Assembly: GCF_003628145.1 (NCBI RefSeq) | Contig: NZ_RBZV01000004.1 | Location: 141,049-205,048, forward strand | From: Trinickia fusca | GTDB taxonomy: Bacteria > Pseudomonadota > Gammaproteobacteria > Burkholderiales > Burkholderiaceae | DNA length: 64,000 bases | Reading direction: 5' to 3' | Shown: piece by piece, positions 1,651 to 64,000 of the stretch | Position numbering within the stretch: position 1 is the stretch's first letter | Layout of the letters: each line of letters begins with the position of its first letter | The notes under the pieces: generated by a model | Told to the model about the DNA's origin: nothing | What the model saw: only the letters and a program-made list of their open reading frames with translations | Databases searched by the model: none | Program-made: the position numbers and the translations under genes

Positions 1651-1807
1651 ACACACGCACGCTGCGCCAGCGCATGACGCATACAACACGGCCTTCAGAG
1701 ACGCGCCACTGAGCGCGCTGGTCGTTTCCCCACAAAAACAGGCATGACCGAGGGTCATCCGTTGCGCCGCCGGCGTGACGGCGCCCGTCATTACACAAGG
1801 GAAACGT

Positions 1808-2878: not shown

Positions 2879-2891
2879 TGTGAGGCAACGA

Positions 2892-5314: not shown

Positions 5315-5316
5315 GA

Positions 5317-6354
5317 ATGAACATGCGTTTCATAGGTGAGCAATCCGCCGTCATGCATCCGCCGATCGTATCGAAGGTGTCGGACCTGATCGGCCGCACC
5401 CCGCTCTTCGAATTGATTCGCGGTGCGAACGGTGCGCGCATTCTGCTGAAGCTCGAATCGACGAACCCGACCGGCAGCGCCAAGATCCGCATGGCGCGCC
5501 AGATGCTCGACGAAGCCGAGCAGGACGGCAGCCTGCGGTCAGCCGGACGCGTGATCGAGTCGACGTCCGGCAACACGGGCATGGGTCTCGCGCTGCTCTC
5601 GGCCGAACGAGGCTATCGCTTCACGGCCGTCGTGGACCGGCACGCGTCGAAGGACAAGCTGCGCGCGATGCAGGCATTCGGTGCCGAACTCGTCTATGTC
5701 TGCGACGGCGACGCGCTGGCGACGGCAGACCGCGAAGCGCTGGCCGAACGGATGGCAGCCGACGATCCGGACAGCATCTGGACCGAGCAGCACAACAATC
5801 CCGCGAACGGCAACGGCTATCGCATGGTCGCGCGCGAGCTGCGCGAGGTGCTTGGCGAGCAGATCGACTACCTCGTCGGCGCGGTCGGCACGGGCGGCTC
5901 GCTGTTCGGCACGGCGCGCGAACTGCGGGCAACCGGCCCGGCACCGCGTGTCATCGGCGTTGAACCGATCGGCTCGATCGCGTTCGGCGGCGACGGCGGC
6001 CCGTACTATCAGTCGGGCACCGGCACGCCGCCCGGCGCCGAGATCGGTGCGCTCGTCGATTACGCCTTGCTCGACGAAGGCATCAAGGTATCGGATGCGG
6101 CCGCGTTCAATACCGCGCGTTACATCGCGCGAAAGAAGGCGCTGCTGGTGGGCGGCTCGGCGGGCGGCGTGATCTGGCACGCATTGAAGATGTTCGCGAC
6201 ACTGCCGCCGAACGCGACCGTCGTCGTGCTGGTCTGCGACGGCGGCGAGAAATATCTCGACAGCGTGTTCGACGACGACTGGATGCGCGAACGCGACCTG
6301 CTCGACGACACGATCGCCCCCGAACTCGATCCCATCTTCGCGAACGCCGTATGA
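5317..6354 (+). CDS. sbnA: SbnA-like cysteine-synthase-family enzyme (ACEGA synthase)
   Basis: 345-residue fold-type II PLP enzyme. SbnA condenses O-phospho-L-serine with L-glutamate to form ACEGA, the precursor that SbnB turns into diaminopropionate. The PLP lysine lies in NPTGSAKIRMA (K56), where true cysteine synthases usually read NPxxSVKDR. Substrate- and phosphate-binding loops are STSGNTGMGLA and VGTGGSLFGTA, and the C-terminal loop is GGSAGG. The start is the ATG at 5317, with AGGAG 7 bases upstream; it sits 2 bases after the preceding stop. The change around the lysine and the sbnB/sbnI neighbours argue for diaminopropionate synthesis, not cysteine synthesis. The stop overlaps the next gene (ATGA). 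Confidence 0.87.
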   Translation: MNMRFIGEQSAVMHPPIVSKVSDLIGRTPLFELIRGANGARILLKLESTNPTGSAKIRMARQMLDEAEQDGSLRSAGRVIESTSGNTGMGLALLSAERGYRFTAVVDRHASKDKLRAMQAFGAELVYVCDGDALATADREALAERMAADDPDSIWTEQHNNPANGNGYRMVARELREVLGEQIDYLVGAVGTGGSLFGTARELRATGPAPRVIGVEPIGSIAFGGDGGPYYQSGTGTPPGAEIGALVDYALLDEGIKVSDAAAFNTARYIARKKALLVGGSAGGVIWHALKMFATLPPNATVVVLVCDGGEKYLDSVFDDDWMRERDLLDDTIAPELDPIFANAV

Positions 6355-7727
6355 CGTTCCATCGACAGTTCTGGTCCGATGCCACGCAAATCGGCACCCT
6401 CGCCGCGCCGCTGATCCTCACGCAGCTCGCGCAGGTCGCCCTCACCACCACCGATGTCGTGATGATGGGGATGCTCGGCCCACGCGAGATCGCCGCCGGC
6501 GGTCTCGCGCTGACGATCTTCAACCAGATGCGCACGATGGGCACCGGTCTCGTCACCGGCACCGGCAATCTCGTTGCTTTTGCCGACGGGCAAAGCGATC
6601 ACGCGCAAATTCAACGTTTGCTGCGCGCGAGCTTTGCCTTGTCGACGCTCGCCGCCCTCGTGTTCGCCCTGCTGATGCTCGCCGTCGAAAAGCCGTTGGC
6701 GTGGCTCGGCCAAGATCCCGCGATTGCGCGGCAAACGGCGTGCTACCTCGCCGCAGCCGCGCCCGGCATGCTGCCGTGCCTATGGTTCCAGTCGTTGCGG
6801 CAATACACGGTGGGACTGAGGCAGCCGGGGCCGCTGCTCGCGATCACGCTCGTGTCGATCGTCGTCAACGCGTTGCTCGACTATGCGCTGATGTTCGGCC
6901 GATTCGGTCTGCCGAAGCTGGGGCTGACCGGTGTCGCCTACGCGACGAGCGCCGTGTACCTGATCTCGTTCGGCCTGTTTCTCGCCATTGTTTCGAGGCG
7001 GGCGGGGCTCGCGCAACATCTGTCGCTTGCGGCTTGGCGTGCCGATGCGGCCGCCCTCGCACGCACGTGGAAGATGGGCCTGCCGATTGCCGCGACCTAC
7101 GGTTCCGAAGCGGCGTTCTTCACGGTGCTCACGCTCGTGATCGGCACGCTTGGCGCCAAAGCGCTCGCGGCGCAGACGGTCGTCAATCAGGTCATTTACA
7201 TCGTGTTCATGATCTCGGTCGGGCTGTCTCACGCGTCGTCGATCAGCATCAGCCGTGCGTGTGCCAGTCACGACTATCGGGGGGCGCGGCGGCTGGGCTA
7301 TACCGGGCTTGCGCTCGGCATCGCCGCGATGCTCCTCGTCGCGCTGCCGTATCTGACGGCCCCAGCGCGCGTGCTGTCGCCTTTCTTCGAGCAGGACGCG
7401 GCCGCGAACGCCGACGTGCTGCAACTCGCAACAGGATTGCTGGCGATTGCGGCGCTGCTGCAGATCTTCGATTGCAGCCAGAACATCGGGGTGGGCATCT
7501 TGCGCGGGCTCGGCGACGTCAAGAGTTCGTTTCGCATCTCGCTGGTCGGCTACTGGATGATCGGTCTGCCCATCGCTTGGGCGTCGGGCGTCGTGTTCGG
7601 CTATGGCTTGTATGGGATCTGGGTCGGGCTCGCCACCGGACTCGCGGCGACCGCCCTGCTGTTGCTGCGCAAGTTCGAGTACCGGCTCGGCGTCTTGGCA
7701 AAACAAGTGTCCGGAGAGCGGCCATGA
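6351..7727 (+). CDS. MATE family efflux transporter, probable siderophore exporter
   Basis: 458-residue inner-membrane protein with about twelve hydrophobic segments arranged as two homologous halves, as in NorM/DinF-type MATE transporters driven by Na+ or H+. N-terminal family features include PLILTQLAQVALTTTDVVMM and later DYALMFGRFGLPKLG. The gene is translationally coupled on both sides by ATGA overlaps, between the sbnA-like gene and the first FecCD permease. Its position inside a biosynthesis-uptake operon makes export of the finished siderophore the most likely job. That role is inferred from context, since MATE proteins also carry drugs. Confidence 0.88.
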   Translation: MTFHRQFWSDATQIGTLAAPLILTQLAQVALTTTDVVMMGMLGPREIAAGGLALTIFNQMRTMGTGLVTGTGNLVAFADGQSDHAQIQRLLRASFALSTLAALVFALLMLAVEKPLAWLGQDPAIARQTACYLAAAAPGMLPCLWFQSLRQYTVGLRQPGPLLAITLVSIVVNALLDYALMFGRFGLPKLGLTGVAYATSAVYLISFGLFLAIVSRRAGLAQHLSLAAWRADAAALARTWKMGLPIAATYGSEAAFFTVLTLVIGTLGAKALAAQTVVNQVIYIVFMISVGLSHASSISISRACASHDYRGARRLGYTGLALGIAAMLLVALPYLTAPARVLSPFFEQDAAANADVLQLATGLLAIAALLQIFDCSQNIGVGILRGLGDVKSSFRISLVGYWMIGLPIAWASGVVFGYGLYGIWVGLATGLAATALLLLRKFEYRLGVLAKQVSGERP

Positions 7728-8731
7728 ACGGGCGGCAGCGTGCGGCAGGTTCGGCCCTAGCGCTTGTACTTGTACTGGTCGCCGCGTTGGTGATCGTCGC
7801 CGTCGCCAGCCTGTGCCTGGGCAATCGCTCGCTGAGCCCCGGCTTTGCGCGGCACGCCATCATCAGCGACAGCGACACACCCGCCGCCATGATCGTCACC
7901 ACGTTGCGGCTGCCGCGTTTCGTTGCGGCGTTGCTGGTCGGCGCGAGCCTCGCGGCGGCGGGCGCGCTGATGCAGGGCATCACGCGCAACCCGCTCGCCG
8001 ATCCGACGCTCACCGGCGTGGTCGGCGGCGCGGCATTCGCGGTCGTCGCCGTCACTGTGCTTCGCCCCGCTGTTCCCGCGGCAGCCTATCCGTTCGTCGC
8101 GCTCGGCGGCGGCCTCTGCGCCGCCGCACTTACGTTTGCGCTCGCATGGCGCGCCCAGCTGTCGCCGCTGCGGCTGTCGTTGGCCGGCACGGCAGTCGCT
8201 GCGCTCGGCAGCGCCGGAATCGTGTCGCTGATGATCGCGGCGGGGCCGCAGGCCGGACCGTTGTTCTATTGGCTGGCTGGCGGGCTCGCGGGCGTCGGCT
8301 GGCAGCAAGTCGCCACCGTTGCGCCGTGGACCGCGGCGGGTCTGGCTGCGGCATTCGCCGGCGCGCGCGTGCTCAATACGCTGGCGCTCGGCGACGACGC
8401 CGCGCAGAGCGTGGGCCTCGACTTGTTGCGCTGGCGCCTGATATTGGGCGGCATCGCCGTTGCGCTGTCGGCATCGGTCGTCGCGATGGCCGGACCGGTC
8501 GGCTTCGTCGGGCTGTGCGTGCCGCATCTGGCGCGGCTGGCGCTCGGCACCGATTGTCGGCGCACGTTACCCATCGCAGCGCTTGCCGGTGCCCTGCTCG
8601 TTGCCGCAGCGGACCTCGTAGCGCGAACGGTGGCTGCGCCGCGCGAACTGCCTGTCGGCTTTCTGACTGCATTGGTCGCCACGCCGCTGTTGATCGCGAT
8701 GATTCGCCGCGATATAGGAGCGCCGGCATGA
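7724..8731 (+). CDS. FecCD-family iron-siderophore ABC transporter permease 1
   Basis: 335-residue inner-membrane permease of the BtuC/FecCD/FhuB family with about ten hydrophobic segments. Diagnostic motifs are LRLPRFVAALLVGASLAAAG, MQGITRNPLADPTLTG and, near the C-terminus, GPVGFVGLCVPHLARLALG, which contains the cytoplasmic loop that docks the ATPase. The start is the ATG at 7724, which overlaps the MATE stop (ATGA); the long frame open upstream of it runs antiparallel in phase through the MATE gene and is not coding. It forms a heterodimeric channel with the next gene for import of the ferric siderophore delivered to the periplasm. Confidence 0.93.
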   Translation: MNGRQRAAGSALALVLVLVAALVIVAVASLCLGNRSLSPGFARHAIISDSDTPAAMIVTTLRLPRFVAALLVGASLAAAGALMQGITRNPLADPTLTGVVGGAAFAVVAVTVLRPAVPAAAYPFVALGGGLCAAALTFALAWRAQLSPLRLSLAGTAVAALGSAGIVSLMIAAGPQAGPLFYWLAGGLAGVGWQQVATVAPWTAAGLAAAFAGARVLNTLALGDDAAQSVGLDLLRWRLILGGIAVALSASVVAMAGPVGFVGLCVPHLARLALGTDCRRTLPIAALAGALLVAAADLVARTVAAPRELPVGFLTALVATPLLIAMIRRDIGAPA

Positions 8732-9795
8732 TGGGTAGCCCGAAGACATTCGCCCCTGACGTTCCTATGCGTCGCACGCCCGTGCGTGCATACGGCCTGT
8801 ATGCAGGGCTGGTGGGGGCGCTCGCCATTGCCACCGTGCTGGCCCTGCTGTACGGCGCAACGGATTTTCCGCTCTGGGCCGCAGCCGAAGCGATTGCCCG
8901 CCGTCATGCCGCTCACGACATCGCCTTTGTCCTGTGGGATTTGCGCATGCCGCGCGTGCTGCTCGCGCTCATGATCGGTGCGCAGCTCGCGGCGAGCGGC
9001 TTGGTATTGCAGGCCGCGCTCCGCAATCCACTCGCCGAACCCAGTGTCATTGGCGTTTCGTCCGGCGCCATGCTCGGTGTCATGGTCTTGCTGCTCGCCA
9101 CGAACTTCGCCGGGTCGCTCGACAGCAGCCGGCTCGATTCGTACGACACCACGTGGATGCCGCTCGTCGCGCAACTCGGCGGTGCTGGAGCGGCACTCAC
9201 CGTCTATGCGCTGGCGTGGCGCGACGGGACGTCGCCATTGCGGCTCGTTCTGATGGGGGTGGCCGTCAGCGCAGCGCTGTACGCCATCGCGATGACGATC
9301 CTCGCCGGCTGGGGGTCGAGCCGTATCGAAGTATTGCTGACCTGGCTCTCCGGGAATCTGTATGCACGCGACTGGCAACACGTGCGCCTGCTCGCGCCGT
9401 GGACAGTCGCGACGCTCGCCCTGCTGCCGTTGATTCTGCCCGCGATGCAGGTCCTTTCGCTCGGCGACGATCCAGCCGCCAGCGTGGGGCTCGATGTCGA
9501 ACGCTGGCGCCTGGCTGCCATCGCCTACGCGGGCTTTGCGGCCGCCTGCGCGGTCGCGATCGCGGGGCCGATTGCCTTCGTCGGCTTGATCGCACCGCAT
9601 CTGGCGCGCCTGCTGATCGGCGCATCGCTCGGGCGTACCGCGCCGGCCGCGGTCCTGATCGGCTCGCTGATTACCGTGCTGGCGGACCTGGCAGGGCGCG
9701 TCGTCATAGCGCCCGCTGAAATTCCGGTAGGCGCGGTCACTGCCGTCTTCGGTGCGCCACTCTTTCTCTATTTGCTCTCTCGACGCTCCTCATGA
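8728..9795 (+). CDS. FecCD-family iron-siderophore ABC transporter permease 2
   Basis: Second permease of the pair, 355 residues. It repeats the family landmarks: DLRMPRVLLALMIGAQLAAS, LQAALRNPLAEPSVIGVSSG, and the ATPase-docking region PIAFVGLIAPHLARLLIG. A serine- and proline-containing N-terminal extension of about 20 residues precedes the first membrane helix, so the ATG at 8767 is a possible alternative start. The ATG at 8728 is preferred because it overlaps the previous stop (ATGA) and has AGGAG upstream. The stop overlaps the ATPase start, again ATGA. Confidence 0.92.
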   Translation: MMGSPKTFAPDVPMRRTPVRAYGLYAGLVGALAIATVLALLYGATDFPLWAAAEAIARRHAAHDIAFVLWDLRMPRVLLALMIGAQLAASGLVLQAALRNPLAEPSVIGVSSGAMLGVMVLLLATNFAGSLDSSRLDSYDTTWMPLVAQLGGAGAALTVYALAWRDGTSPLRLVLMGVAVSAALYAIAMTILAGWGSSRIEVLLTWLSGNLYARDWQHVRLLAPWTVATLALLPLILPAMQVLSLGDDPAASVGLDVERWRLAAIAYAGFAAACAVAIAGPIAFVGLIAPHLARLLIGASLGRTAPAAVLIGSLITVLADLAGRVVIAPAEIPVGAVTAVFGAPLFLYLLSRRSS

Positions 9796-10706
9796 CGCTC
9801 GTTGCCCGTGAACTTTCGCTCGGCTATGGCTCGCGCCGTATCGTCGATGACCTGTCGCTCACCATCGAAACGGGCCGAATCACCGTGCTGCTCGGCCCCA
9901 ACGGCTGCGGCAAGAGCACGCTGCTGCGCGCACTCGCCGGCCTGCTCGCGCCGCAACAAGGCTCGGCGCTGCTCGACGGCGTGCCGCTACGGGACTGGCC
10001 GCGCAAAAAACTCGCGCGGCGCATCGCCTTCCTGAAGCAGACGCAGGACGTACCCGACGGCTTGTCGGTGCAGGATCTCGTCCGTCATGGCCGCTTTGCC
10101 CATCGGGCGGCGTTGCGGGGCACGACGTTTGAAGATCGCGAGGCCGTCGAATGGGCGCTCGACGTGACGAACCTCGTCGCCATGCGCGATCGCCCGCTCA
10201 TCGCCCTATCGGGCGGCGAGCGGCAGCGCGTATGGATTGCGATGGCACTCGCCCAAAAAGCCGACATCCTGTTGCTCGACGAACCGACGACCTATCTCGA
10301 CCTCGGTCATCAAATCGAAGTCATGCAGACGCTGCATCACCTCAACGCGGCGTTCGGCTTGACGCTCGTGATGTCGCTCCATGACCTGAACCAGGCGATG
10401 CGCTACGCCCATCGCGCACTGGTGATGCGCAATGGACGGCTGGTGGCCGATGGCGTTCCCGTCGACGTGCTGACGCCCGAATTCGTCGCCGACGTGTTTC
10501 AGGTGCGCACCGAGCGGCTACAAGGGGCAAGCGATGGCTTTCCCGTTTGCCACCCGCTCAGCCCAGTGGCGACGCCGAACCCGGTCCGCCCTATGCGCCC
10601 TGTACAGGGCATGCGCAACACCCACGACGTCGACGCATCCACTGTGGCAAGCAAGGTCGGCAACGTGGTGACACTCGCGAGGCGGACGTCCCATGATCGA
10701 CCGTAA
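9792..10706 (+). CDS. Iron-siderophore ABC transporter ATP-binding protein (FecE/FhuC type)
   Basis: 304-residue cytoplasmic ATPase of the FecCD importer. Walker A is GPNGCGKST, the signature motif is LSGGERQRVWIAMALAQ, Walker B is ILLLDEPTTYLDLGHQ, and the switch histidine follows in MSLHDLNQA. Family members usually end near residue 255. This one carries about 45 extra residues rich in proline and valine after FPVCHPL, and this tail overlaps the next start by 14 bases. The extension is probably a by-product of gene overlap; no domain is recognised in it. Confidence 0.94.
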   Translation: MTLVARELSLGYGSRRIVDDLSLTIETGRITVLLGPNGCGKSTLLRALAGLLAPQQGSALLDGVPLRDWPRKKLARRIAFLKQTQDVPDGLSVQDLVRHGRFAHRAALRGTTFEDREAVEWALDVTNLVAMRDRPLIALSGGERQRVWIAMALAQKADILLLDEPTTYLDLGHQIEVMQTLHHLNAAFGLTLVMSLHDLNQAMRYAHRALVMRNGRLVADGVPVDVLTPEFVADVFQVRTERLQGASDGFPVCHPLSPVATPNPVRPMRPVQGMRNTHDVDASTVASKVGNVVTLARRTSHDRP

Positions 10707-11694
10707 GCGGCGAGCGCTCGCGTTATCCGTGTCGCTTTCGTCCGCGCTGATGTGGCAGTCCCGTGCACGTGCACACGCACGGACTGCATTCAGTGTGACC
10801 GACGATCGCGGCGCCGAACTGCGCTTCGATGCCGCACCGCGCCGGCTCGCGACGATCTCCTACTTCGGCGCCGATGCCGCCCTCGCGCTAGGCGTGCAGC
10901 CGGTTGCCTCGACGTTTCTCGTGCGGGGCAGGCGGCCCGCCTATCTGCTCGACCGGATGAACGACGTGATGGATCTCGGCCAGCGCGCCAGCCCGAATCT
11001 CGAACTGCTCGCGCGCGCCCAACCCGACCTGATCGTCGCGATTCGCCGCTACACCGAAGCCAATGCGGGGCGGCTTCAGCGGATTGCCCCCTATCTCGCG
11101 CTCGATCTCGAGACCTCGCAAGACAGCGACCACGGTATTGCGCTTGTCGGCGCGGCGCTTGGCAAAGCTGAGGCGGCTGCCGATCTGAACCGTCGATTCG
11201 CCCGCGTGCTGGCGCAGTATCGTGCGCGCGTGACGCCGCACCGCGCGCCGCGTTATCTGTTCGTCTGGGGTGCCGGGTCCGCGCCCTGGGCGTTCTACGA
11301 CGAGAACATGACGTGCTCGCTGCTGAACGCGTTGGGCGCCATCAATGTTGCGGGTCACAACCCGCTCCCGGCACAACGCGACAACACGGCATTCCAGATG
11401 AGTCTCGAAGCGCTGCTGCTGGCCGACCCCGACACGATCTTCGTCTATGACGACGGACCGTCGCGTGCCTTCGAGCGGAGCCCGGTGTGGCAGCACCTGT
11501 CGGCCGTGCGCAGCGCGCGCATCGTGCGAGTGGGCGATCACTGGATCGAATCGTTCGGTCCGATCGCCCGCCATGCCGTACTGGCCGAGGCGGCTGCCCA
11601 CCTTCACCCGGATGGGTTCGCGCCGCCCGACCTGCATGCCATCGCATCGTCCTACCTGAGTCTTTCCCACTCCAAACCGCTTGTCGACCTTTGA
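10693..11694 (+). CDS. Periplasmic iron-siderophore-binding protein (FecB/FhuD family)
   Basis: 333-residue cluster A-III substrate-binding protein. A basic N-terminus and hydrophobic stretch end in a signal-peptidase-I-like site (SRARAHA); no lipobox cysteine is present, so it should be soluble in the periplasm. Family features are PRRLATISYFGADAALALGV near the start, LELLARAQPDLIVA, and a long interlobe helix around DHGIALVGAALGKAEAAADL. It should hand the ferric siderophore taken up by the TonB receptor to the FecCD channel encoded just upstream. Confidence 0.92.
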   Translation: MIDRKRRALALSVSLSSALMWQSRARAHARTAFSVTDDRGAELRFDAAPRRLATISYFGADAALALGVQPVASTFLVRGRRPAYLLDRMNDVMDLGQRASPNLELLARAQPDLIVAIRRYTEANAGRLQRIAPYLALDLETSQDSDHGIALVGAALGKAEAAADLNRRFARVLAQYRARVTPHRAPRYLFVWGAGSAPWAFYDENMTCSLLNALGAINVAGHNPLPAQRDNTAFQMSLEALLLADPDTIFVYDDGPSRAFERSPVWQHLSAVRSARIVRVGDHWIESFGPIARHAVLAEAAAHLHPDGFAPPDLHAIASSYLSLSHSKPLVDL

Positions 11695-54839: not shown

Positions 54840-55874
54840 ATGACATCTGCCCGACCGTTCATGCCGTGCCCGCATGGGCTTCCGAGAACCGCGATCACGA
54901 CACGCCCTCGCGTGGCGGTGCTGTGCATGGCCGCCATGCTCGCGACCACGGCTTGTCATCAAGGCAGCACCAGCTCGAACGCATCGCCGAGCCGATCCGC
55001 CCAGCGGGCACACGCCGAAACGAACACATCGTCGGCAGCTTCGTCGTCGAACGAAGCGCCCGCGATTGCACCTTCGCTCAGACGCGCCGAGCTCATGCAA
55101 GCCATATTTCCTGGCTGGAAAGACTCGGAGAAAGGCGACACGCGTATCGTCGATGCCGAAGTCCCCGATCGCGATCAGCAAGGCAAGCTTTCGAACGACC
55201 TCGTCGGCAGCCGGCTCGACATCAAACCGCGTGAAGTCATCCGGCTCGACGATACGCATGCGGCCTTGATCACCGAAGGCGTGGAGGTGACCGAGGACGG
55301 CGAGCGCGTCGATTCGCATGCGTCGGGGGCATGGCTCGGCGCCTACTTCTTCCTGCACGAACCGGCCGGGTGGACGCTCGAGCAACGTATCGACGGTGTC
55401 GCCTATCAAGGCGCCTCGGGCAGCTATGGGCAAACGAACGTCATCAAACTGTCGGCCGCCACGTTCGGCCTGGTCGTGACCTCGGGCAGTTGCTGGCAAG
55501 GCTACTGTGGATCGTGGGCCACGGTGTTCGGCATCGAGCCCGACCACATCGACAAGCTCGCCGATACCGTGCCCGTCAGCGCCAGCAACCTCGGCGCGAA
55601 GGAAGAATGCGAGGCCGTGCTCAAGCGCAGCGAACCCGCTTCGAACCACCCCGGCATTGCGGCGGATTCGCCGCAATGCTTCGACATCGGCGGCAATATC
55701 GACGTCGTGCCGGGCACCGATGCGCCCGGCGACTTGCATATCGCTTTCAGCGGCGCGATGACGATCGGCGACTCGGCTACACAGGCGCAAAGTATCGACG
55801 AGGTGGCCATCTATCGCATCAGCAACGGCAAGTACACGCTGACGCAGGGGCGCAATCCGGTGCCGGCGTTCTGA
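54840..55874 (+). CDS. Hypothetical lipoprotein
   Basis: About 344 residues. A hydrophobic segment, RPRVAVLCMAAMLATTACHQ, contains a lipobox-like LATTAC, followed by a low-complexity Ser/Ala/Asn linker and a globular domain (about 110-344). Visible in it are SLRRAELMQAIFPGWKDSEK, AYFFLHEPAGWTLEQRIDGV and GSCWQGYCGSWATVFGIEPD, with two nearby cysteines, and a C-terminal VAIYRISNGKYTLTQGRNPV. I do not recognise a family. Start uncertain: 54840, 54861 or 54927. The neighbouring MFS gene is convergent, 9 bases away. Confidence 0.72.
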   Translation: MTSARPFMPCPHGLPRTAITTRPRVAVLCMAAMLATTACHQGSTSSNASPSRSAQRAHAETNTSSAASSSNEAPAIAPSLRRAELMQAIFPGWKDSEKGDTRIVDAEVPDRDQQGKLSNDLVGSRLDIKPREVIRLDDTHAALITEGVEVTEDGERVDSHASGAWLGAYFFLHEPAGWTLEQRIDGVAYQGASGSYGQTNVIKLSAATFGLVVTSGSCWQGYCGSWATVFGIEPDHIDKLADTVPVSASNLGAKEECEAVLKRSEPASNHPGIAADSPQCFDIGGNIDVVPGTDAPGDLHIAFSGAMTIGDSATQAQSIDEVAIYRISNGKYTLTQGRNPVPAF

Positions 55875-55883
55875 CCTGATCGC

Positions 55884-57086
55884 TCAGGCCGGGATGGGCG
55901 CGCGCTTGCGGCTCACGAATGCGCGCAGTGCCACGACAACCGGCGGCAAAGCGCCGAGCACGATCACGCCTTGCCAACCGAAGCGGCTCCAGACCCATGT
56001 CGTCAGCGGCGAAGCAATGGCTGCGCCACTGAGAAGGCCCAGGATATAAACGGCGCCGACGCGACTGCGCGCTTGTTGCCCGAGCGAGAAGATGCGTGTT
56101 TGATTCGAAATGTGAGCGATCGTGAGTCCGACGTCGAGCAGGATGGCTCCCAGCCCCAACGCGGTCAGGCTGCTACCGGACACCGCCGTCACGAGCCACG
56201 CCGACACGCCACATGCCGCGCCGAATGCGACACCGAAGTGAGCCCCGCGCCGATCGACGAGTTTGCCGAGCCTCGGCGCCACGACGACACCCGCCGCACC
56301 GACGAGCGCAAACCATGCGACGGCCGTGCTGCCGAGCCCGAACGCAGGACTCGCCAAGCGCAGCGGCAGCGCGATCCAGTAGACGTTGAACGAGCCGAAC
56401 ATCAATGCCTGCGTCAGCGCCGCGCTGCGCAGCGTCGGCTCGCTTCGCCAGACGGTCGCGAGCGATGCGAGCATGCCGGCATAGGAACTGTGCGCGAGCG
56501 CCGTCATGCGCGGCATGACGAAGCGGATAGCGATCGCCATGGCGACACACAGCAGCGCGCCGATGCGAAACGGCGCCTGCCAGCTCACATGCTCACCCAA
56601 TACGCCGCTCAACGCACGCGCGACCAGAATGCCGGCGAATATGCCGCTCGCCAGTCTGCCGAGGATCTTGCCGCGTTCGGCCGGATCGATGAAGCGCGAT
56701 ACGAGCGGCGGCAGCAGGTACGGCGTGACCGTCGTGAGTCCCACGAAGAAGCTCGTGGCGAGCAGTGCCGTACTGCTGCGAGCCATCGTGACGGCGACGA
56801 GGCCCACGGCGTTGGCAAGCAGCAGCGTCACGATGAGCTTGCGGCCGTCGAGCCGATCGCCGAGCGGCAACAGCAGCAGGACGCCGAACCAGATGCCGAT
56901 CTGGCTTGCCATCGGCACGAGACCGACTGAGGCAATCGGCAGCGAAAACGCGTGGGCGATGTGAATCAGCAACGGCTGCGCATAGTAGGCACTGCCGATC
57001 GCCACGCCGCAGGCCACGCAAGCCAAGCTCTCGGCTCGTTCGCTCAGATGGACGGTAGGCGTGTCGAGGGTGCGGGACGTGTTCAT
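55884..57086 (-). CDS. MFS transporter (12-TM, AraJ/YnfM-like efflux family)
   Basis: 400-residue inner-membrane protein with about twelve hydrophobic segments. The MFS motif between helices 2 and 3 is LPLGDRLDGRKLIVTLLLAN, and the start of the transporter domain reads CGVAIGSAYYAQPLLIHIAH, typical of the sugar/arabinose-efflux-like DHA1 group. Likely a proton-driven exporter of an unknown small molecule. ATG at 57086 puts about 15 residues before helix 1. Divergent from a LysR gene that probably controls it. Confidence 0.9.
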   Translation of the reverse strand: MNTSRTLDTPTVHLSERAESLACVACGVAIGSAYYAQPLLIHIAHAFSLPIASVGLVPMASQIGIWFGVLLLLPLGDRLDGRKLIVTLLLANAVGLVAVTMARSSTALLATSFFVGLTTVTPYLLPPLVSRFIDPAERGKILGRLASGIFAGILVARALSGVLGEHVSWQAPFRIGALLCVAMAIAIRFVMPRMTALAHSSYAGMLASLATVWRSEPTLRSAALTQALMFGSFNVYWIALPLRLASPAFGLGSTAVAWFALVGAAGVVVAPRLGKLVDRRGAHFGVAFGAACGVSAWLVTAVSGSSLTALGLGAILLDVGLTIAHISNQTRIFSLGQQARSRVGAVYILGLLSGAAIASPLTTWVWSRFGWQGVIVLGALPPVVVALRAFVSRKRAPIPA

Positions 57087-57312
57087 TCTCAAGGTCCAAT
57101 GAATCGGGTTGAAGATGAACGCGACTCTATGCAGCACGTGGTACGACACCAAGACAGCGATGCTCAATTGATTCTTGCGCGACGCTTCATAATGACGCAC
57201 AACGCTCAACGCGCAATACGCAACGCACACACGCGAAAGCCGATAACATCGCACGCACGAGGCAGCCGTGCGCTCGTACCGCCGCTTGATGCCGCCACTC
57301 GCATTCGACTCG

Positions 57313-58389
57313 ATGGATACCGCCAAAGCCCTTTCGATTTTCGCCGCCGTCGTGCGCGCCAAAAGCTTCACGCACGCGGCGCAGGCAACGGGCATCACTC
57401 CGCCCGCCGTCAGCCGCTCGATCGCGCTGCTCGAGAAGCATCTCGGCGTGCGCCTGTTTCACCGCACGACGCGGCGCGTCAGCCTGACCGAAGAAGGCGA
57501 GAAGCTGTTCGAGCTGACCGACGAGGGGCTACGGCTGCTCGACGAGGCGATGGACAAGACCCGCTATCTGACGCGCGGCCTCGCCGGCGTCATCCGCATC
57601 ACGGCCACGCGGTCGATCAACCATTGCGTGCTGGTTCCGCTGATCGCCGCGTTTCGCGAAGCGCATCCCGCCGTGCGGTTCGACGTGACGCTCGATGCGC
57701 AATTTACCGACCTCGTCGCCGCGAAGATCGACGTGGGTTTCCGTATCGGCGGCGAGCCGCCGAGCCTGTCCGTCGCGCGACCCATCGGCACGCTGGCGTT
57801 CGCCGTCTGCGCGTCGCCGGCCTATCTCGCGCGGCACGGAACACCCGCCACCGTCGACGAACTGCTCACGCATACGTGTACGGGATTTCGCAATCCGAAC
57901 ACAGGCCGGATCGACCCGTGGGAGCTCATGATCGACGGCGAGCTTGTCCACCAGCACGTGCCGGCCACGATTGCGTTCAACGATGCCCCAGCGGAGCTGC
58001 ATGCGATGTGCGCGGGCCTCGGCATTGGCTTGTTGCCGTACCACCTGGTGGCCGACTACTTGCGCGCCGGTCTGCTCGAGCCGGTCATACGTGAACACTG
58101 GAGCGAGCCGGGCAAGATCTATCTCTACTACCCGCAACACCAGCGCATGCCCGCGCGCGTACGTGCCTTCATCGATTTCGCGCTCGATTGGATCAAGTCG
58201 CACCCGCTGCCCGAGCTGACCAGCGATGCGCACGCGATGCACGAGAATCGCGAGACCGCGCGCGCCGCGCGCCGGAACACGCGTGCGGCGAAATCGAAGA
58301 CTGCTGGCGACGTCGCCCGAGCCCCTCGCTCAACCCGCGCTAAAAAGGCCCATTCCGGCGCCATCGCCGTGCCCCGGAAGCGCGCTTGA
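57313..58389 (+). CDS. LysR-family transcriptional regulator
   Basis: 358-residue regulator. HTH: MDTAKALSIFAAVVRAKSFT then GITPPAVSRSIALLEKHLGV. The co-inducer domain begins near ITATRSINHCVLVPLIAAFR. It has an unusual 55-residue basic C-terminal tail rich in Arg, Ala and Lys (AARAARRNTRAAKSKTAGD and onward), which LysR proteins normally lack and which could add non-specific DNA or RNA binding. Divergent from the MFS gene at 55884, its probable target. ATG at 57313 chosen; 57268 is an alternative. Confidence 0.89.
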   Translation: MDTAKALSIFAAVVRAKSFTHAAQATGITPPAVSRSIALLEKHLGVRLFHRTTRRVSLTEEGEKLFELTDEGLRLLDEAMDKTRYLTRGLAGVIRITATRSINHCVLVPLIAAFREAHPAVRFDVTLDAQFTDLVAAKIDVGFRIGGEPPSLSVARPIGTLAFAVCASPAYLARHGTPATVDELLTHTCTGFRNPNTGRIDPWELMIDGELVHQHVPATIAFNDAPAELHAMCAGLGIGLLPYHLVADYLRAGLLEPVIREHWSEPGKIYLYYPQHQRMPARVRAFIDFALDWIKSHPLPELTSDAHAMHENRETARAARRNTRAAKSKTAGDVARAPRSTRAKKAHSGAIAVPRKRA

Positions 58390-58523
58390 GGAACTGCGTC
58401 ATGTCGTCGATGAGCGCCTGCTCCCGCGGGCCAGGTTGCTGCGGAAGCCGCTCTTGCCGAATGCCTGGGAAACACTACGCCGTTGGCGCGGCGGCGCAGG
58501 GTACATGCCCCGCGCCTGTCCTG

Positions 58524-59963
58524 CTACGGCCGACTCCCTGCCGTCTCCTCCTTCGCGATGCCAAACGTGCACGCCGCTGACAGCACGGCAATCAACACGC
58601 AAGCCGCGCTGTACGTCGCTCTCGCATCAGGCAGCACCGTCGACATACGGAAGTACAGCGTCCCGATGCCGATGACCCCGACCAGGTTCGCCAGTTGAAT
58701 GACGGTCGGAAGGACGCCGGACGCCGCGCCGACGAGATGCGGCTCGAGCGTTCCGATCGCCCGGCCCACGGTCGGCGTAAAGATGATGCCGGTCGCGAAT
58801 CCGATCAGAAACATCGGTGCGATCGAAACACGAATCAGCGACCCGGCCTCACCGCCCAGCTGCGGTAGCACGGCCAGCCACAAGTAGCCGACGCCCGTCA
58901 GGCCGCTGCACACGATCATCAGGCGTATGCCGAACTTGCGCAGCGCGGCCGGCGCCAGCAGCGAAGCGATTCCGTAGCCCAACCCCGGCGCAATCAGCAC
59001 GAGCCCGAACCGCGACGGCGACATGCCGAGCCCGTTCTGAAAGAACAGCGTGAGAACGAACAGAAAGCCCGCCAGTGCCGCCTGCAATGCAAAGACGACC
59101 CAGAGCCCCGCCGTGAAGCGCCGCTGAGTGAGCAACTTGGGGTGCAGCAACGCATTGCGCAACGCCCGCACGCGGCGTCGCTCATGCCACAGGAACAGCG
59201 CGCCAACGATCGGAAACAGCGCGAGCGGCACGGCCAGCTTCCAGACGTCGACATGCCCCGATGCCAACCCGGCGATCGGATAGAACAATGCGACGAGAGC
59301 GATCGTCAGCAGCGCCGCCCCACCCACGTCGAAGCCGACCTTGCTGTTAGTCTTCGCAACCGGCAACACGACGAGCCCGGCCGCGATCGCAGCAATGCCG
59401 ATCGGGACGTTGATGAGGAACAGCATGCGCCACTCGGGACCGCCTCGGCCATGCCCCATCAGCAGCGCCCCCAGGACCTGACCCAGGATCGACGCGAGCC
59501 CGACAGTGGCCCCGTAGATGGCCAATGCCTTGGGCTTTTCCCGATCGTCGAACGAGGTCTGAATCGTGGCGAACACCTGCGGCACCATCAGCGCCGCGCC
59601 CACCCCTTGAAACGCGCGCGCGGCGATCAGCATGCCCACGCTCGACGCGAGACCGCACGCCAGCGAAAAGATCGAGAACAGCAGCATGCCGGCGAGAAAG
59701 ACCTTCTTGCGGCCGTAGTGATCGCCGGCGCGCCCCCCCATGATCAGAAACAGCGCATAACACAGCGTGTAACTCGCCACGGCCCACTCCAGCTGCTCCG
59801 ATGTCGCACCGAAGGCGATCTGGATCGAAGGTAGCGCGATGTTCACGATGAACACGTCGACCAAGGCCATGAACATGGCCGTGACGACCACCACCAGCGC
59901 ATACCACCGGTTGCGGACGTCGTCGCCGTGCCGGGCCGGCGAGAGATCGGCGGCGACTTTCAT
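58524..59963 (-). CDS. 14-TM MFS exporter (EmrB/QacA, DHA2 family)
   Basis: 479-residue drug:H+ antiporter-type membrane protein with about fourteen hydrophobic segments. Motif D1 (ALVDVFIVNIALPSIQIAFG), motif A (GGRAGDHYGRKKVFLAGMLL) and motif C-like GATVGLASILGQVLGALL are visible. It is the last gene of a four-gene operon; its start overlaps the stop of the pyruvyltransferase-family gene (ATGA on the minus strand). By position it should export the operon's product or confer self-resistance. Confidence 0.92.
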   Translation of the reverse strand: MKVAADLSPARHGDDVRNRWYALVVVVTAMFMALVDVFIVNIALPSIQIAFGATSEQLEWAVASYTLCYALFLIMGGRAGDHYGRKKVFLAGMLLFSIFSLACGLASSVGMLIAARAFQGVGAALMVPQVFATIQTSFDDREKPKALAIYGATVGLASILGQVLGALLMGHGRGGPEWRMLFLINVPIGIAAIAAGLVVLPVAKTNSKVGFDVGGAALLTIALVALFYPIAGLASGHVDVWKLAVPLALFPIVGALFLWHERRRVRALRNALLHPKLLTQRRFTAGLWVVFALQAALAGFLFVLTLFFQNGLGMSPSRFGLVLIAPGLGYGIASLLAPAALRKFGIRLMIVCSGLTGVGYLWLAVLPQLGGEAGSLIRVSIAPMFLIGFATGIIFTPTVGRAIGTLEPHLVGAASGVLPTVIQLANLVGVIGIGTLYFRMSTVLPDARATYSAACVLIAVLSAACTFGIAKEETAGSRP

Positions 59964-61237
59964 AGCGCGGGCCCGTAGGCCGGCACGCTACGCTCGCCTT
60001 GACTTACGTTCGAGCGCCAGCCGAACGCATGCTGCGCCACGATGTCGTAGTTGCGCTGGTCCTCGCGTTGCAGCGCCAGCACGCCGGGCCGTATGCGCGC
60101 GCGCGTGCTCTCGACCTTCTCGGCGTTGCCGGCCAGTTGACGATGCAGCGCGATCAGTCGATCGATGCGGTCCACGCTGTCATACGGCACGAAGCACTCG
60201 GGCATATCCAGGTGCTCGGCAATGAACTTCGTGCGCGTGTCGTGCCCCAAGCCGATGAACGGCACGGCATAGGGCAGCGGAAGCACGAGCGCGTGGTAGC
60301 GCGACGTGGTGACCGACGAGAACATCGACATCAACGCCGACATCTGCGGCGGCGTCAGGTCGTCGCCGGCCAGCAGCAGCACGCGCCTCGGGTCTTTGAC
60401 GGCCTGCGCGATCCGCTCGGCGATGCGCCGGTCGGCCGGGTCCATCACGAGCAGCGGAACGAGGCCGTCCTTCGAGAAATCGAGCAGGTAATCGACGTAG
60501 CGCACCCAATCGGCGATCAGGGTCTCGCTCATCCGCCGGCCGCCATCGCCCCACGTCGCTTTGATCGGCCAGCGCAGATATTCGTCGCGACGGCCGAACA
60601 GCGCGATTTTCGCAGGCCACATATGAAAGTCGACCGGTGCCACGGCATCGAGACGCTGATCCTTGATGCCGTAACGACTGGCGAGCTGTCGACGCAACAC
60701 GTCGCTAGGCAACGGCATCGACAGCGCACAGTCGGCCGTGACCTGGATCGGAATCTTCACGCCCAATTGCAGCAACACATCGCGTGCCGACGGCGCGCGC
60801 ACCGTCAGCAGCTCGATGCTGTTGAGCGCGGAGACCATCCTGCCTTTGCGCACGGGGCTGATGCGCCCCGAATCGAGCGCCAGGCCCACGACATACTTCT
60901 GCTGCCGCTCGGCCTCCTCCATCGCATGCGCGAACACCTCGATCATGAGCGGAGAGAACTCATCGGTCAGCATGTTCCCTTCGGCGAGGATCATCACGTC
61001 GGTGTCGCCGATTAGCCGCGTCGCTTTGCCCTTGTAGAAGGCAGGATGCAGGTAGGCCGTCGATACGTTGTAGTCGCGCCCGACATAAGCGAGCCGCTTC
61101 TTGTCGAATGTCGACACAGTGATGTCGATGTGCGGCGCCCGCTGCCGCAAGTTGTGAATCATCGAGATCAGGCGCGCCTCGGCTCCGAGGTTGCGAAAGC
61201 CGTGATAGCCATAGATGAAGACTTTTCGTCGCTGCAT
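59960..61237 (-). CDS. Polysaccharide pyruvyl transferase family protein
   Basis: 425-residue glycosyltransferase-B-like protein of the CsaB/WcaK family. Landmarks: FIYGYHGFRNLGAEARLISM at the N-terminus (the usual GxxNxGDE motif here reads FRNLGAEA), VILAEGNMLTDEFSP, VTADCALSMPLP and the C-terminal SSVTTSRYHALVLPLPYAVP then FIGLGHDTRTKFIAEHLDMP. Family members transfer pyruvate ketals onto sugars or, in WcaK-like branches, have other roles. No polysaccharide genes are nearby; it sits between an N-acyltransferase and an exporter, 2 bases after the former. A small-molecule substrate is therefore likely. The frame open beyond the ATG at 61237 belongs to no gene. Confidence 0.85.
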   Translation of the reverse strand: MQRRKVFIYGYHGFRNLGAEARLISMIHNLRQRAPHIDITVSTFDKKRLAYVGRDYNVSTAYLHPAFYKGKATRLIGDTDVMILAEGNMLTDEFSPLMIEVFAHAMEEAERQQKYVVGLALDSGRISPVRKGRMVSALNSIELLTVRAPSARDVLLQLGVKIPIQVTADCALSMPLPSDVLRRQLASRYGIKDQRLDAVAPVDFHMWPAKIALFGRRDEYLRWPIKATWGDGGRRMSETLIADWVRYVDYLLDFSKDGLVPLLVMDPADRRIAERIAQAVKDPRRVLLLAGDDLTPPQMSALMSMFSSVTTSRYHALVLPLPYAVPFIGLGHDTRTKFIAEHLDMPECFVPYDSVDRIDRLIALHRQLAGNAEKVESTRARIRPGVLALQREDQRNYDIVAQHAFGWRSNVSQGERSVPAYGPAL

Positions 61238-61239
61238 GG

Positions 61240-61875
61240 TCAGCTCCAGGTATCTTGTTCGTCGATGGCCAATGCGCCCTCGTCCAGCAGACGCGCCGGC
61301 TCGCCACCCTGCGCCCCGGTGAAGATCACGTTGGACGAGTCGTGCAGCGCCGCGGTGCGCGCGATGTTGCCGAGGATCACGCGATACGGTTCGCTGGTCC
61401 TTTCCTGCAGATGGAACGGTTCGCCGATAGGCTCCGAGCCCATCGCCACCATCAACTTCAAGACGCTGACCCGGCAGTACGCGATGAAACGCGTCGTCGC
61501 AAGATGCTGCTGGACCCACTTCGCGGCAGCGGGCAGCAGAATGCCGGCGTAGGACCGGACATTCGGCTCGCTCGGCACCGCCGCCAACCGCGACACTTCG
61601 AGCAAATCGTCGGCCCCCTCGAACTCGGTCGGCAGCAGCCCTAGATCGCGCATCTCGACATGGCGGGCACCGACGGGCGTCAGACGTACCGTCGCCACGC
61701 ACCGCTCGCCGTGGCGCAGCAGCATGACCGCGCCTTGGGCGTCGCGTTGATCTTCTTTCTCCCGCTCATGGAAAGTTAGCCCCAGGCGGCTTTGATACAG
61801 GTGTTCGCGCACGGCCCTGGCATCTTCCAGATCGGCGGGAGTACGAACTGGACCGAAAGTAAGTAACGTTTCCAT
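61240..61875 (-). CDS. N-acyltransferase, FeeM/LuxI-like GNAT fold
   Basis: 211-residue acyltransferase. The N-terminal half follows the N-acyl amino acid synthase/autoinducer synthase plan: RAVREHLYQSRLGLTFHERE, then AVMLLRHGERCVATVRLTPV, MRDLGLLPTEFEGADD and LLEVSRLAAVPSEP. The VRLTP arginine and EVSRLAV glutamate correspond to conserved positions of LuxI and FeeM. Such enzymes join a fatty acyl chain from acyl-ACP to an amine. It lies 7 bases after the diiron oxidase gene. The acceptor and chain length are unknown; no LuxR partner is encoded in the operon. Confidence 0.78.
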   Translation of the reverse strand: METLLTFGPVRTPADLEDARAVREHLYQSRLGLTFHEREKEDQRDAQGAVMLLRHGERCVATVRLTPVGARHVEMRDLGLLPTEFEGADDLLEVSRLAAVPSEPNVRSYAGILLPAAAKWVQQHLATTRFIAYCRVSVLKLMVAMGSEPIGEPFHLQERTSEPYRVILGNIARTAALHDSSNVIFTGAQGGEPARLLDEGALAIDEQDTWS

Positions 61876-61882
61876 TTGATGA

Positions 61883-62614
61883 CTACTCCTTCGAGCGGCC
61901 GGCGGTATAGGCGTCGAAAGCGGCTTCGAGCAGCTTGCCGGTCAGGTATAGCGTCGTGCGAGCGACCTCGATCACCGACGCTTGATCTTCCGGGCTCACC
62001 GCATAACGCTCGATCGCGTCGTGCACTTGCTTCGCGTGATGCACGTCGACCTTCTGGTGGCTCACGAAGAACGTCAGTTGCGGGTCCGTGAAGCCCAGAT
62101 GCTGGCGGATCGCCGTCAGCACTTCGGCGATGTGGTCGTATGCCGTTTCAGCCCAGTAGCTGTAGCCGAGGCGGGCAATCGCTCCCTTCGTGAAGCCGAT
62201 GTAGTAGAGGTAGGCGATCAGCGCTTGCGTCGGCGGCAGCGGCGCACGGGCGAGCAGATCGGGCGTGAGCAGACCGACCACGCGCAGATCGTGCTCTACC
62301 ATCTTCTCGTGGCCGAGCTCGTCGTCGGCGTGCTCGTAGCAAAACTTGAGCAGGCCAATGTTCTCCGGCGACACCTTCCACGCGGCAAATGCCTGATTGA
62401 TCGAGTTATGGCGCGTGTAGTGGAACAGCTCGACCATCAGCGCCTGATAAAGATCCTGGTCGATGCCGTGCTCGCGGATGTGCTTCCATAGCCTGCCCGC
62501 GTGAACCTCGGCCCACCCCTGATTGACCACGTGATCCAGACGCGAAAAGATGTCCGAACCGGCATCGCCTGATTCAGGTTTTTGTTCAGAAAGGAATTCC
62601 TGAGTGACCGCCAT
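61883..62614 (-). CDS. Heme-oxygenase-like diiron oxidase (iron-containing redox enzyme family)
   Basis: 243-residue all-helical protein of the HO-like diiron oxidase/oxygenase superfamily (TenA/PqqC-like fold; UndA, SznF and BesC are members). A likely iron-binding set is visible: E62 and H65 in VELFHYTRHN, D98-ELG-H102 in HADDELGHEKM, E156 in SYWAETAYDH, and the diagnostic H186-QKV-D190-VH-H193. Members perform O2-dependent N-oxygenation, C-C cleavage or decarboxylation. First gene of the operon. GGAGG lies before the ATG at 62614. Substrate unknown; an acyl-amino acid made by the next gene is an attractive guess. Confidence 0.82.
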   Translation of the reverse strand: MAVTQEFLSEQKPESGDAGSDIFSRLDHVVNQGWAEVHAGRLWKHIREHGIDQDLYQALMVELFHYTRHNSINQAFAAWKVSPENIGLLKFCYEHADDELGHEKMVEHDLRVVGLLTPDLLARAPLPPTQALIAYLYYIGFTKGAIARLGYSYWAETAYDHIAEVLTAIRQHLGFTDPQLTFFVSHQKVDVHHAKQVHDAIERYAVSPEDQASVIEVARTTLYLTGKLLEAAFDAYTAGRSKE

Positions 62615-63135
62615 TTTCCCGCCTCCAATATAAAGAAATACGACTTCCCAATTCAAGTTTCCATTTTCAACAGACAAGCATCCGCCCTGGGCAAATCGAG
62701 CCCAATGACAGATTCATTACCAATCGATGATTCGAAAGCGAAGATTCACGCCCATCCACGACGCCACAAGCTACTGATTTTCATGGCGACATCCCTCCCC
62801 GCCCCAGGAAAGGATCTGAGCGCGACAGCCGAGGCGAGCATGATGATCTGCCGATACTTCGGCAGCGCGGAACTGGTTTAACTGGCGATGCATGTTAAGC
62901 AAATACCTATCACGATGCATCTGCCAAATATCGTAGTATTTCGTTATTCACCGGAACACATTAAATGATAATTCTATCGAATAATATGCATTCAGCATTT
63001 TATTGAATAACTCAATACGAATAATCGCGCATCGACATAAATTTAGAAGTCGGCAACTCATGACGACCGTCACTTGCCGAATTTGGCGTACGCGGCTTCG
63101 CACTCTGGGCGCTCTATCGCGTCGGATGGGTACGG
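62615..63135. promoter_or_regulatory. AT-rich leader/intergenic region upstream of the four-gene operon
   Basis: About 520 bases with no credible gene. The stretch 62885-63020 is strikingly AT-rich for this genome and contains an imperfect inverted repeat AATAATATGC/GCATTTTATT (62980-63004) and two copies of CGATGCAT. It probably carries the operon promoter and operator; low GC also hints at H-NS-type silencing or recent acquisition. Confidence 0.5.
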
Positions 63136-63172
63136 CAGAAAGCGGGCACCGTGCGACGGTGCCCGCTTTCTG
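63136..63172 (-). terminator. Strong 16-base hairpin downstream of the aminotransferase-domain gene
   Basis: Perfect stem CAGAAAGCGGGCACCG/CGGTGCCCGCTTTCTG with a TGCGA loop, 70 bases past the stop of the minus-strand gene at 63242. The arm contains TTT but no long U-run follows. It would insulate the downstream operon's AT-rich leader from read-through. Confidence 0.7.
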
Positions 63173-63241
63173 CGTTCGGTGGGGCTATTTAGGAAATCGA
63201 AGCGATCGGGTGATCGCAGTCGCGTAGATGGGGCAGGCGAC

Positions 63242-64000
63242 TCAACCGACACGCGCCTCGGCCGACGCAAGTTCGTCGAGGCTTCGCCGAATATCTTGCG
63301 CCAAGCGACGAGCGCCGGCTTGATCGAGATTCGAAATCGTCACGCGCATGCCCTGCCAGATGTCTTGCACGCAGAACACCTCGCCGTTGCGCACGAGCCA
63401 ACCACGCCGCGCCAGCCCAAGCACCACGGCCTGCCCGTCATGACTGAGCGGCACCCACAGGTTCAAACCGTCGGCCGGCACCAACGCTGCCAGACCCTGC
63501 TCGTGCAGTGCGTCGACCAACCATGCGCGCCGGTTCGCGTAGTCGAGCTTGGCATCGGCCAGACGTTGCATGACCTTCCGCGAACTCAGGCAAGCACACA
63601 CGATGTCTTGTAGCAAATGACTGACCCAGCTCGTGCCGGGCGCCAGACGCAAGCGCAAACGCTGCGACGTCCGGCGATCGCTCGCCACCAAGGCGAGCCG
63701 CAAATCGGGCCCCAGCGCTTTCGACACGGAGCGGATCAAGGCCCAGCGCTGTGTCGAAGGCGGAACGATCGAGCGATATGCCGAGTCTGTCAGGAGTGCG
63801 AAATGATCGTCGATGATGACGAGTACGTTCGGATGCCGCGCGAGCACCCGGCGCAGCGCCTTGGCCCGCGCTTCGCTGAGGTTGCAGCCGGTGGGATTGT
63901 GGGCGCGCGGGGTCACGATCACGGCCTGCGCCCCCTTTGACAACGCCGCCTCCAACGCGTCCGCACGAATGCCCTCGCCATCGACGGGCACGCCGATCGG
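63242..64000 (-). CDS. PtsJ/MocR-like aminotransferase-domain protein (N-terminus cut by window)
   Basis: C-terminal ~250 residues of a fold-type I aminotransferase; the frame runs off the right edge (PIGVPVDGEGIRADALEAAL is its visible start). VIVTPRAHNPTGCNLSEARA, VLVIIDDHFALL and LIRSVSKALGPDLRLALVAS with the PLP lysine place it in the PtsJ/MocR regulator branch, where a GntR helix-turn-helix precedes this domain. If so, the HTH lies outside the window. It could also be a plain aminotransferase. Followed by a strong hairpin at 63136. Confidence 0.83.
   Translation of the reverse strand, partial: PIGVPVDGEGIRADALEAALSKGAQAVIVTPRAHNPTGCNLSEARAKALRRVLARHPNVLVIIDDHFALLTDSAYRSIVPPSTQRWALIRSVSKALGPDLRLALVASDRRTSQRLRLRLAPGTSWVSHLLQDIVCACLSSRKVMQRLADAKLDYANRRAWLVDALHEQGLAALVPADGLNLWVPLSHDGQAVVLGLARRGWLVRNGEVFCVQDIWQGMRVTISNLDQAGARRLAQDIRRSLDELASAEARVG

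Follow-up and report, generated by a model that had tools for sequence, protein, structure and literature searches.

The 64,000-nucleotide stretch of Trinickia fusca DNA analyzed here (contig NZ_RBZV01000004.1, positions 141,049 to 205,048; hereafter the window) contains on its minus strand, from position 62614 to 58524, four genes that follow one another head to tail and code for a haem-oxygenase-like diiron oxidase (HDO), a predicted N-acyltransferase (AT), a protein of the polysaccharide-pyruvyl-transferase family (PPT), and an exporter of the major facilitator superfamily (MFS). The main result of this work is that an HDO gene paired with an AT gene recurs in other bacteria together with different accessory genes, a conclusion that is well supported by sequence comparisons, and it is very likely that these two enzymes act in one pathway. 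The operon as a whole is probably a biosynthetic one that is free of nonribosomal peptide synthetases (NRPS) and polyketide synthases and is built on a portable two-enzyme core consisting of AT and HDO. The pair constitutes a better-supported and more general finding than the set of four genes.

Recurrence of the HDO-AT Pair with Changing Partners

In what follows genomes, contigs, and loci carry our G, C, and L numbers, G000 being the T. fusca genome. A scan of a contig collection with two exact peptide patterns, derived from three aligned HDOs, identified 16 loci (one from Corallococcus, one from Zooshikella, and 14 from Pseudomonas), and in all 16 of them a gene of the AT type, resembling the ATs of G000 contig C1 or of G629, comes before the HDO gene and a DUF3419 gene after it, a count that speaks for the DUF3419-type relatives only. 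In the Zooshikella locus an FMN-binding gene is situated between AT and HDO, and an AMP-binding gene is found near, and not demonstrably in the same operon as, the Pseudomonas module L040. Contig C1 of the T. fusca genome itself carries a second AT-HDO module with DUF3419, and G629 likewise possesses one. When plasmids were searched with the HDO, 26 records were matched, 23 of them from Pseudomonas, and in each of the four records examined an AT-type gene lies directly before the HDO gene. Two of these four are plasmids of the P. syringae group, which also harbor anthranilate-synthase-type genes, a PaaK-like ligase, an FMN reductase, an EamA transporter, and a hydrolase. The AT-HDO pair is present on the Agarilytica plasmid pSU2 as well and, with DUF3419 and speD, on a Deefgea plasmid. 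The surroundings of the pair include an FMN reductase in G629 as well, and exporters of the EamA type on the P. syringae plasmids and in G081.

Searches that led from AT to HDO, or from HDO to AT, gave further cases. In G081, a genome of the same family that was reached from the AT search, the AT gene and an HDO-like gene overlap by 4 bases and are arranged in the gene order of the window, and after the pair come genes of the PGA_cap, alanine racemase, amidase, and EamA families. A profile made from six ATs gave five matches in 41 genomes of the same family, four of which adjoin an HDO (both G000 modules, G028, and G048); as this profile includes both ATs of G000, and G028 and G048 belong to one genus, the search contributes a single further context, where the pair adjoins ABC transporter genes and is without DUF3419 among the scanned genes (L086:4326-10047 and L087:3366-9727). 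In G876, reached from the HDO search, the next gene contains a FeeM domain (PF21926) scoring 44.4 bits against a cut-off of 27, and the Agarilytica partner likewise exceeds this cut-off, with 35 bits. The AT profile used for scanning loci was trained partly on loci that it found; the AT-to-HDO searches and a leave-one-out search are the cleaner tests. In the latter, a hidden Markov model built from 12 ATs of other modules placed the window AT first among 392 open reading frame (ORF) fragments of the window (E = 3e-12), and a profile from 10 DUF3419-type ATs alone still found it (E = 2.3e-7). As a control, 14 loci containing more distant HDOs (L019-L032, with flanks of at most 1.5 kb) yielded no AT match below E = 1. 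Lastly, HDO precedes AT in the window, G081, and G876, whereas AT comes first in the other modules, and the link between them is therefore not one of mere inherited order.

Some other features of these loci were recorded in their own right. The second T. fusca module, at about 813-817 kb of C1 (L033:6163-10790), is overlapped at its end by an ORF of the PNP-oxidase family, and a beta-lactamase-family hydrolase is encoded further on. Genes for S-adenosylmethionine (AdoMet) decarboxylase are present beside AT-HDO-DUF3419 in G629, Corallococcus, and Deefgea (L034, L037, and L057). The loci L086 and L087 come from two small genomes of one genus of the same family, and in L086 fructose-bisphosphatase then follows. 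In G876 (L079:7457-9321) the FeeM domain and a cyclic-nucleotide-binding domain are part of one ORF directly after the HDO gene.

Characteristics of the Encoded Proteins

The first-pass annotation of this DNA had described the first gene product as an HDO with an H-x3-D-x2-H site, and both parts of this description were confirmed. The protein scores 69.6 bits against PF14518 (curated cut-off 28.9), and the AlphaFold2 (AF2) model superposes on the nearest solved structure, 3dde (E = 2.5e-42), with TM-scores of 0.79/0.82, indicating a haem-oxygenase-like fold. The residues E99, H102, E156, H186, D190, and H193, and possibly E62, are candidate metal ligands that are predicted to bind iron. In an alignment of 11 rows, H186, D190, H193, E156, and E99 are invariant, H102 is found in 10/11 rows, and E62 in 9/11, with Q replacing E62 in two rows and H102 in one. 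H186, D190, H193, and E156 align with residues of CADD that we take to be its ligands, whereas E99 and H102 align with MboA. In phylogenetic trees the window HDO falls together with those of Agarilytica and the P. syringae plasmid and is separated from HDOs of the DUF3419 type, and this grouping has support of 88/93 in a first tree, as a group of four rows, and of 100/100 in a second tree comprising other rows. Both trees are unrooted and contain long branches, that of the window HDO being long in the first of them; both omit L052, the frame of which is interrupted, and the second also omits L062 and eight Pseudomonas rows. The interrupted frame is that of the Pseudomonas anatoliensis HDO, which is broken by a stop codon (L052, near 10000-10650) and is perhaps a pseudogene or a sequence error. 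The T. fusca genome also contains a third, distant HDO that is 20% identical (contig C40, 217.5-218.1 kb; L014).

According to the available text of one report most HDOs are of a function not known, and the same source describes DtpC, a protein with an HDO-like domain that limits peroxide in dried Acinetobacter (PMC13232832). It is very improbable that the window HDO is likewise protective in desiccation and oxidative stress rather than biosynthetic, as the operon of DtpC includes the catalase KatE (PMC13232832), whereas the partner of the window HDO is an acyltransferase and relatives of this HDO occur elsewhere in biosynthetic-looking contexts.

For the second protein, which had been annotated as a FeeM/LuxI-like acyltransferase, the assignment is borne out by its predicted fold. 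The AF2 model (pTM 0.73) appears to have the fold common to FeeM and the N-acyl-homoserine lactone (AHL) synthases, and in a Foldseek search with this model the first matches were RpaI, BjaI, and MesI, with FeeM at rank 8. The protein contains the motif residues R64..P67 and E93-x-S-R96. A solved-structure sequence search with the AT alone gave no match, and one with the A4 AT profile found only a GNAT (E = 0.21). A possible assignment of this protein as a LuxI-type AHL synthase was set aside, as no AHL-synthase model in Pfam or NCBIfam was matched at E values up to 1. A related possibility is that the HDO converts the aroyl or acyl amide made by this AHL-synthase-like AT into a diffusible, non-AHL quorum signal, which is exported and then sensed by a LuxR-type receptor. 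This accords with the first Foldseek matches being AHL synthases that depend upon coenzyme A (CoA; for RpaI and BjaI, CoA donor use is taken from the structure titles), with the match of the DUF3419-type AT profile to the AHL synthase TofI (E = 0.0017), and with the position of the P. syringae plasmid version next to a gene of the LuxR family, in the available text "adjacent to a luxR receptor" (PMC6238374). However, no LuxR-type gene was detected among the scanned genes flanking the window operon, the AT sequence itself matches no AHL-synthase model, and a freely diffusing signal would need no drug-type exporter; we thus consider a signal of this kind unlikely.

The third protein belongs to the family of CsaB and WcaK, as had been proposed, scoring 49.6 bits against PF04230 (curated cut-off 25.3), but with 75.2 bits it is below the cut-off of 213.1 for the CsaB equivalog TIGR03609, and it falls short of the WcaK equivalog cut-off as well. 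Its residues R147, R313, and H315 are conserved with E. coli WcaK and are candidates for binding phosphoenolpyruvate (PEP). In the mapping made in this analysis R147, H315, and R313 match by position R148, H308, and R306 of CsaB, of which the first two were assigned to PEP binding by mutants and the third by docking, as stated in the available text of PMC10435577. A search of solved structures with PPT gave a single match (E = 0.54), which was disregarded. The fourth protein was correctly named an exporter: it is a member of the MFS, scoring 150.4 bits against PF07690 (MFS_1), above the cut-off, and its 196.3 bits against the DHA2/EmrB model TIGR00711 are below the subfamily cut-off of 230.2.

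As the studied PF04230 enzymes modify saccharides (PMC10435577, in the text available), PPT, and perhaps MFS, could serve a surface glycan or lipid while HDO and AT serve a separate acyl-amine product, the two functions having only a transcript in common. The scanned neighbors of other AT-HDO modules include no PPT, and the G081 module has a gene of the capsule-synthesis family PGA_cap, both of which are in keeping with such a division. It is nevertheless improbable, since PPT is placed between AT and MFS, with a gap of 2 bases on one side and an overlap of 4 bases on the other, and no polysaccharide family was present among 20 flanking proteins scanned, as the first-pass annotation had also noted.

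Proposed Pathway and Observations That Weigh Against It

In the pathway that best accounts for the four genes together, AT would acylate the amine of an amino acid or a similar compound, taking the acyl group from acylated acyl carrier protein or acyl-CoA. The HDO, using O2 and two irons, would then oxidize the amine-bearing part of the resulting amide, PPT would move pyruvate from PEP onto hydroxyls of the product and so make it acidic, and MFS would pump it out. The PaaK-like ligase contained in the P. syringae plasmid operon fits an acyl- or aroyl-CoA donor for AT, such as RpaI and BjaI use. The oxidation probably affects the amine portion of what AT makes, because known HDOs mostly use amino acids or their derivatives, on which they carry out O-atom transfer, desaturation, C-C scission, and other reactions (PMC13185094, in the text available). 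For the window HDO the options would be C-C cleavage or decarboxylation, desaturation, and N-oxygenation. We infer both the chemistry of the product and the order of the steps. The scheme as a whole, in which an N-acyl amine is made, oxidized, pyruvylated, and exported, has in our estimate a little less than an even chance of being correct; that all four proteins act upon one product in roughly this manner is a slightly more tentative claim, and any particular type of oxidation is to be held with less confidence than either.

A number of observations weigh against this scheme or limit the pairing on which it is built. The confidence of the HDO model is moderate (pLDDT 68), and the AT scores 22.3 bits against the FeeM family PF21926, below the cut-off of 27. 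The HDO of G081 is distant, with 20.1 bits where the PF14518 cut-off is 28.9 and a ligand helix of the form H-x3-D-x4-H. Pairing is also not universal: the weak AT match in G019 has no HDO beside it, the HDO of L063 has no AT profile match in its flanks, and that of G819 has none nearby, there being only a 39-residue tblastn match to AT (E = 4.7e-4) on another, neighboring gene. Moreover, the test named in the first-pass annotation was joint conservation of the genes in other genomes, which held for the HDO-AT pair, with other partners, but not for the complete set, which in the genomes sampled was not found outside T. fusca. As no second instance of all four genes turned up there, we infer the link of PPT and MFS to the pair from operon structure alone. 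Separately from these points, the HDO of G819 adjoins GH3-type and KAS III-type genes (L080:9589-13280).

The searches behind the result on the complete set covered several taxonomic levels. With AT, 3/398 genomes of the same family were matched at 1e-3 (T. fusca itself, G081, and G350), the four-gene operon being present in the first only; the G350 match (41% over 98 aa) was taken as spurious, as 19.5 kb there contained no HDO or AT profile match. With PPT, the sole match among 369 genomes of the class at 1e-15 was T. fusca. The HDO matched 6/11 genomes of the genus at 1e-3, those outside G000 having only distant HDOs of 21-25% identity, 16/399 of the order at 1e-10, strong only in T. fusca and G629, 4/369 of the class at 1e-15 (T. 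fusca, G819, G876, and G903), and 1/398 of the phylum at 1e-20, again T. fusca. Searches by tblastn of plasmids with AT and with PPT, and of phages with HDO, gave no match, and none of the viral contigs scanned encodes a relative of HDO, AT, or PPT. The stretch from 55800 to 64000 shows only short matches in the 10 other genomes of the genus, and one could regard the operon on this ground as a recently acquired or decaying patchwork without a common product. This is quite improbable, considering that all four frames are open, their candidate active-site residues are kept, the spacing is tight, and two modules of the pair reside in this genome.

Organization of the Operon and Its Flanks

The coordinates of the operon and its upstream region are summarized in Table 1. 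The arrangement reported in the first-pass annotation is that given by the ORF calls: HDO, AT, PPT, and MFS are transcribed in this order, with a gap of 7 bases between the first two. Ribosome sites of the GGAGG/AGGAG type are found at HDO and AT. The intergenic region upstream of HDO has 49.8% GC compared with 62.1% for the window, and contains one weak sigma-70-like match at 62656-62627 (one found against 0.7 expected). In view of this AT-rich stretch and the 18-bp inverted repeat within it, the operon probably has a promoter of its own, from which it starts; the repeat was not among the terminators reported by a terminator scan.

Table 1. Positions in the window of the operon genes and of features upstream of them.
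Feature	Position	Strand	Basis
HDO: haem-oxygenase-like diiron oxidase, 243 aa	61883..62614	-	PF14518
AT: N-acyltransferase of predicted FeeM/AHL-synthase fold, 211 aa	61240..61875	-	sub-threshold PF21926 and AF2/Foldseek fold
PPT: polysaccharide-pyruvyl-transferase family (CsaB/WcaK-like), 425 aa	59960..61237	-	PF04230
MFS exporter, DHA2/EmrB-like type, 479 aa; start overlaps PPT stop by 4 bases	58524..59963	-	PF07690
AT-rich upstream intergenic region, 627 bases, probable promoter region of operon	62615..63241	.	base composition
Perfect 18-bp inverted repeat, possible terminator-type hairpin, between operon and upstream aminotransferase-family gene	63135..63173	.	

A LysR-type regulator gene is located downstream of the operon and faces it. 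Neither chorismate enzymes nor an aryl ligase were found in the operon or among the scanned flanking genes. Elsewhere in the window, at 85-11694 on the plus strand, there is a siderophore-type locus with a TonB receptor, a TauD-like protein, a protein of the ornithine cyclodeaminase family, a pyridoxal-phosphate-dependent decarboxylase, a PALP enzyme, MatE, an FecCD permease, an ABC ATPase, and a periplasmic binding protein, which we presume to resemble the SbnA/SbnB diaminopropionate route. Outside the window, a VRP3 family protein (PF03536, 222 bits) is encoded on contig C34 (L036:3990-4883), with an ABC transporter set and an MFS gene in the vicinity.

Comparison with Known Systems

No HDO-acyltransferase pair and no gene set such as the present one was described in the literature searched, to which most subscription papers were external, and the earlier statement that no described pathway has this set therefore stands within that scope. 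Of the characterized HDOs, CADD, AetD, UndA, and BesC share the fold of the window HDO by structure comparison and MboA is alike by sequence; the H-x3-D-x2-H of CADD aligns with that of the window protein. Sequence similarity to characterized members is weak, the best being to a 4-aminobenzoate synthase (E = 8e-8), and 3dde, the closest relative with a solved structure, bears the title "domain of unknown function". The identity of the window AT to FeeM and to the AHL synthases RpaI, BjaI, MesI, and LasI is 14-18%. The ketal pyruvyltransferases CsaB and WcaK have in common with PPT the family and the residues R147, R313, and H315, but polysaccharide genes are not seen near PPT, and K328 of CsaB corresponds to R335, a replacement with which CsaB (K328R) keeps reduced activity (PMC10435577).

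Two groups of gene clusters are closer. In the AT-HDO-DUF3419 cassette, present in Pseudomonas, Corallococcus, Zooshikella, the Deefgea plasmid, G629, and the second T. fusca module, and with no description found in the literature searched, an AT homologue precedes an HDO that is 37-44% identical to that of the window and falls in a separate group; DUF3419, which the window operon lacks, takes the place of PPT and MFS, and some cassettes have an AdoMet decarboxylase or beta-lactamase-family hydrolase nearby. The highest HDO identity, 47.5-47.9%, is to the plasmid pathway of the P. syringae group, in which an AT homologue is directly upstream. That operon includes the EamA transporter, anthranilate-synthase-type enzymes, the PaaK-like ligase, FMN reductase, and hydrolase, and is without PPT or MFS. 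In P. syringae pv. actinidiae this pathway is described, in the available text of PMC6238374, as uncharacterized, proceeding from chorismate, and induced in planta.

These comparisons suggest a wider interpretation, which is tentative and has rather less than an even chance, namely that AT and HDO form an unrecognized portable core for natural products made without NRPS. An enzyme of AHL-synthase fold would make an N-acyl or N-aroyl amino acid, a dedicated diiron oxidase would rewrite the amino-acid end, and accessories such as DUF3419, an aryl ligase, a racemase and amidase, or, in this case, a pyruvyltransferase would diversify the product. If true, a PEP-dependent pyruvyltransferase that acts on a small molecule of this kind would be known for the first time, from the window operon. 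The recurring AT partner narrows the likely substrate of the 3dde-type HDOs to acylated amines, an idea that is testable with two small soluble proteins, and the pair provides a handle on the plasmid pathway that is induced in planta (PMC6238374). The window operon is best seen as a variant of the small HDO pathways, possibly with an unrecognized core module behind it.

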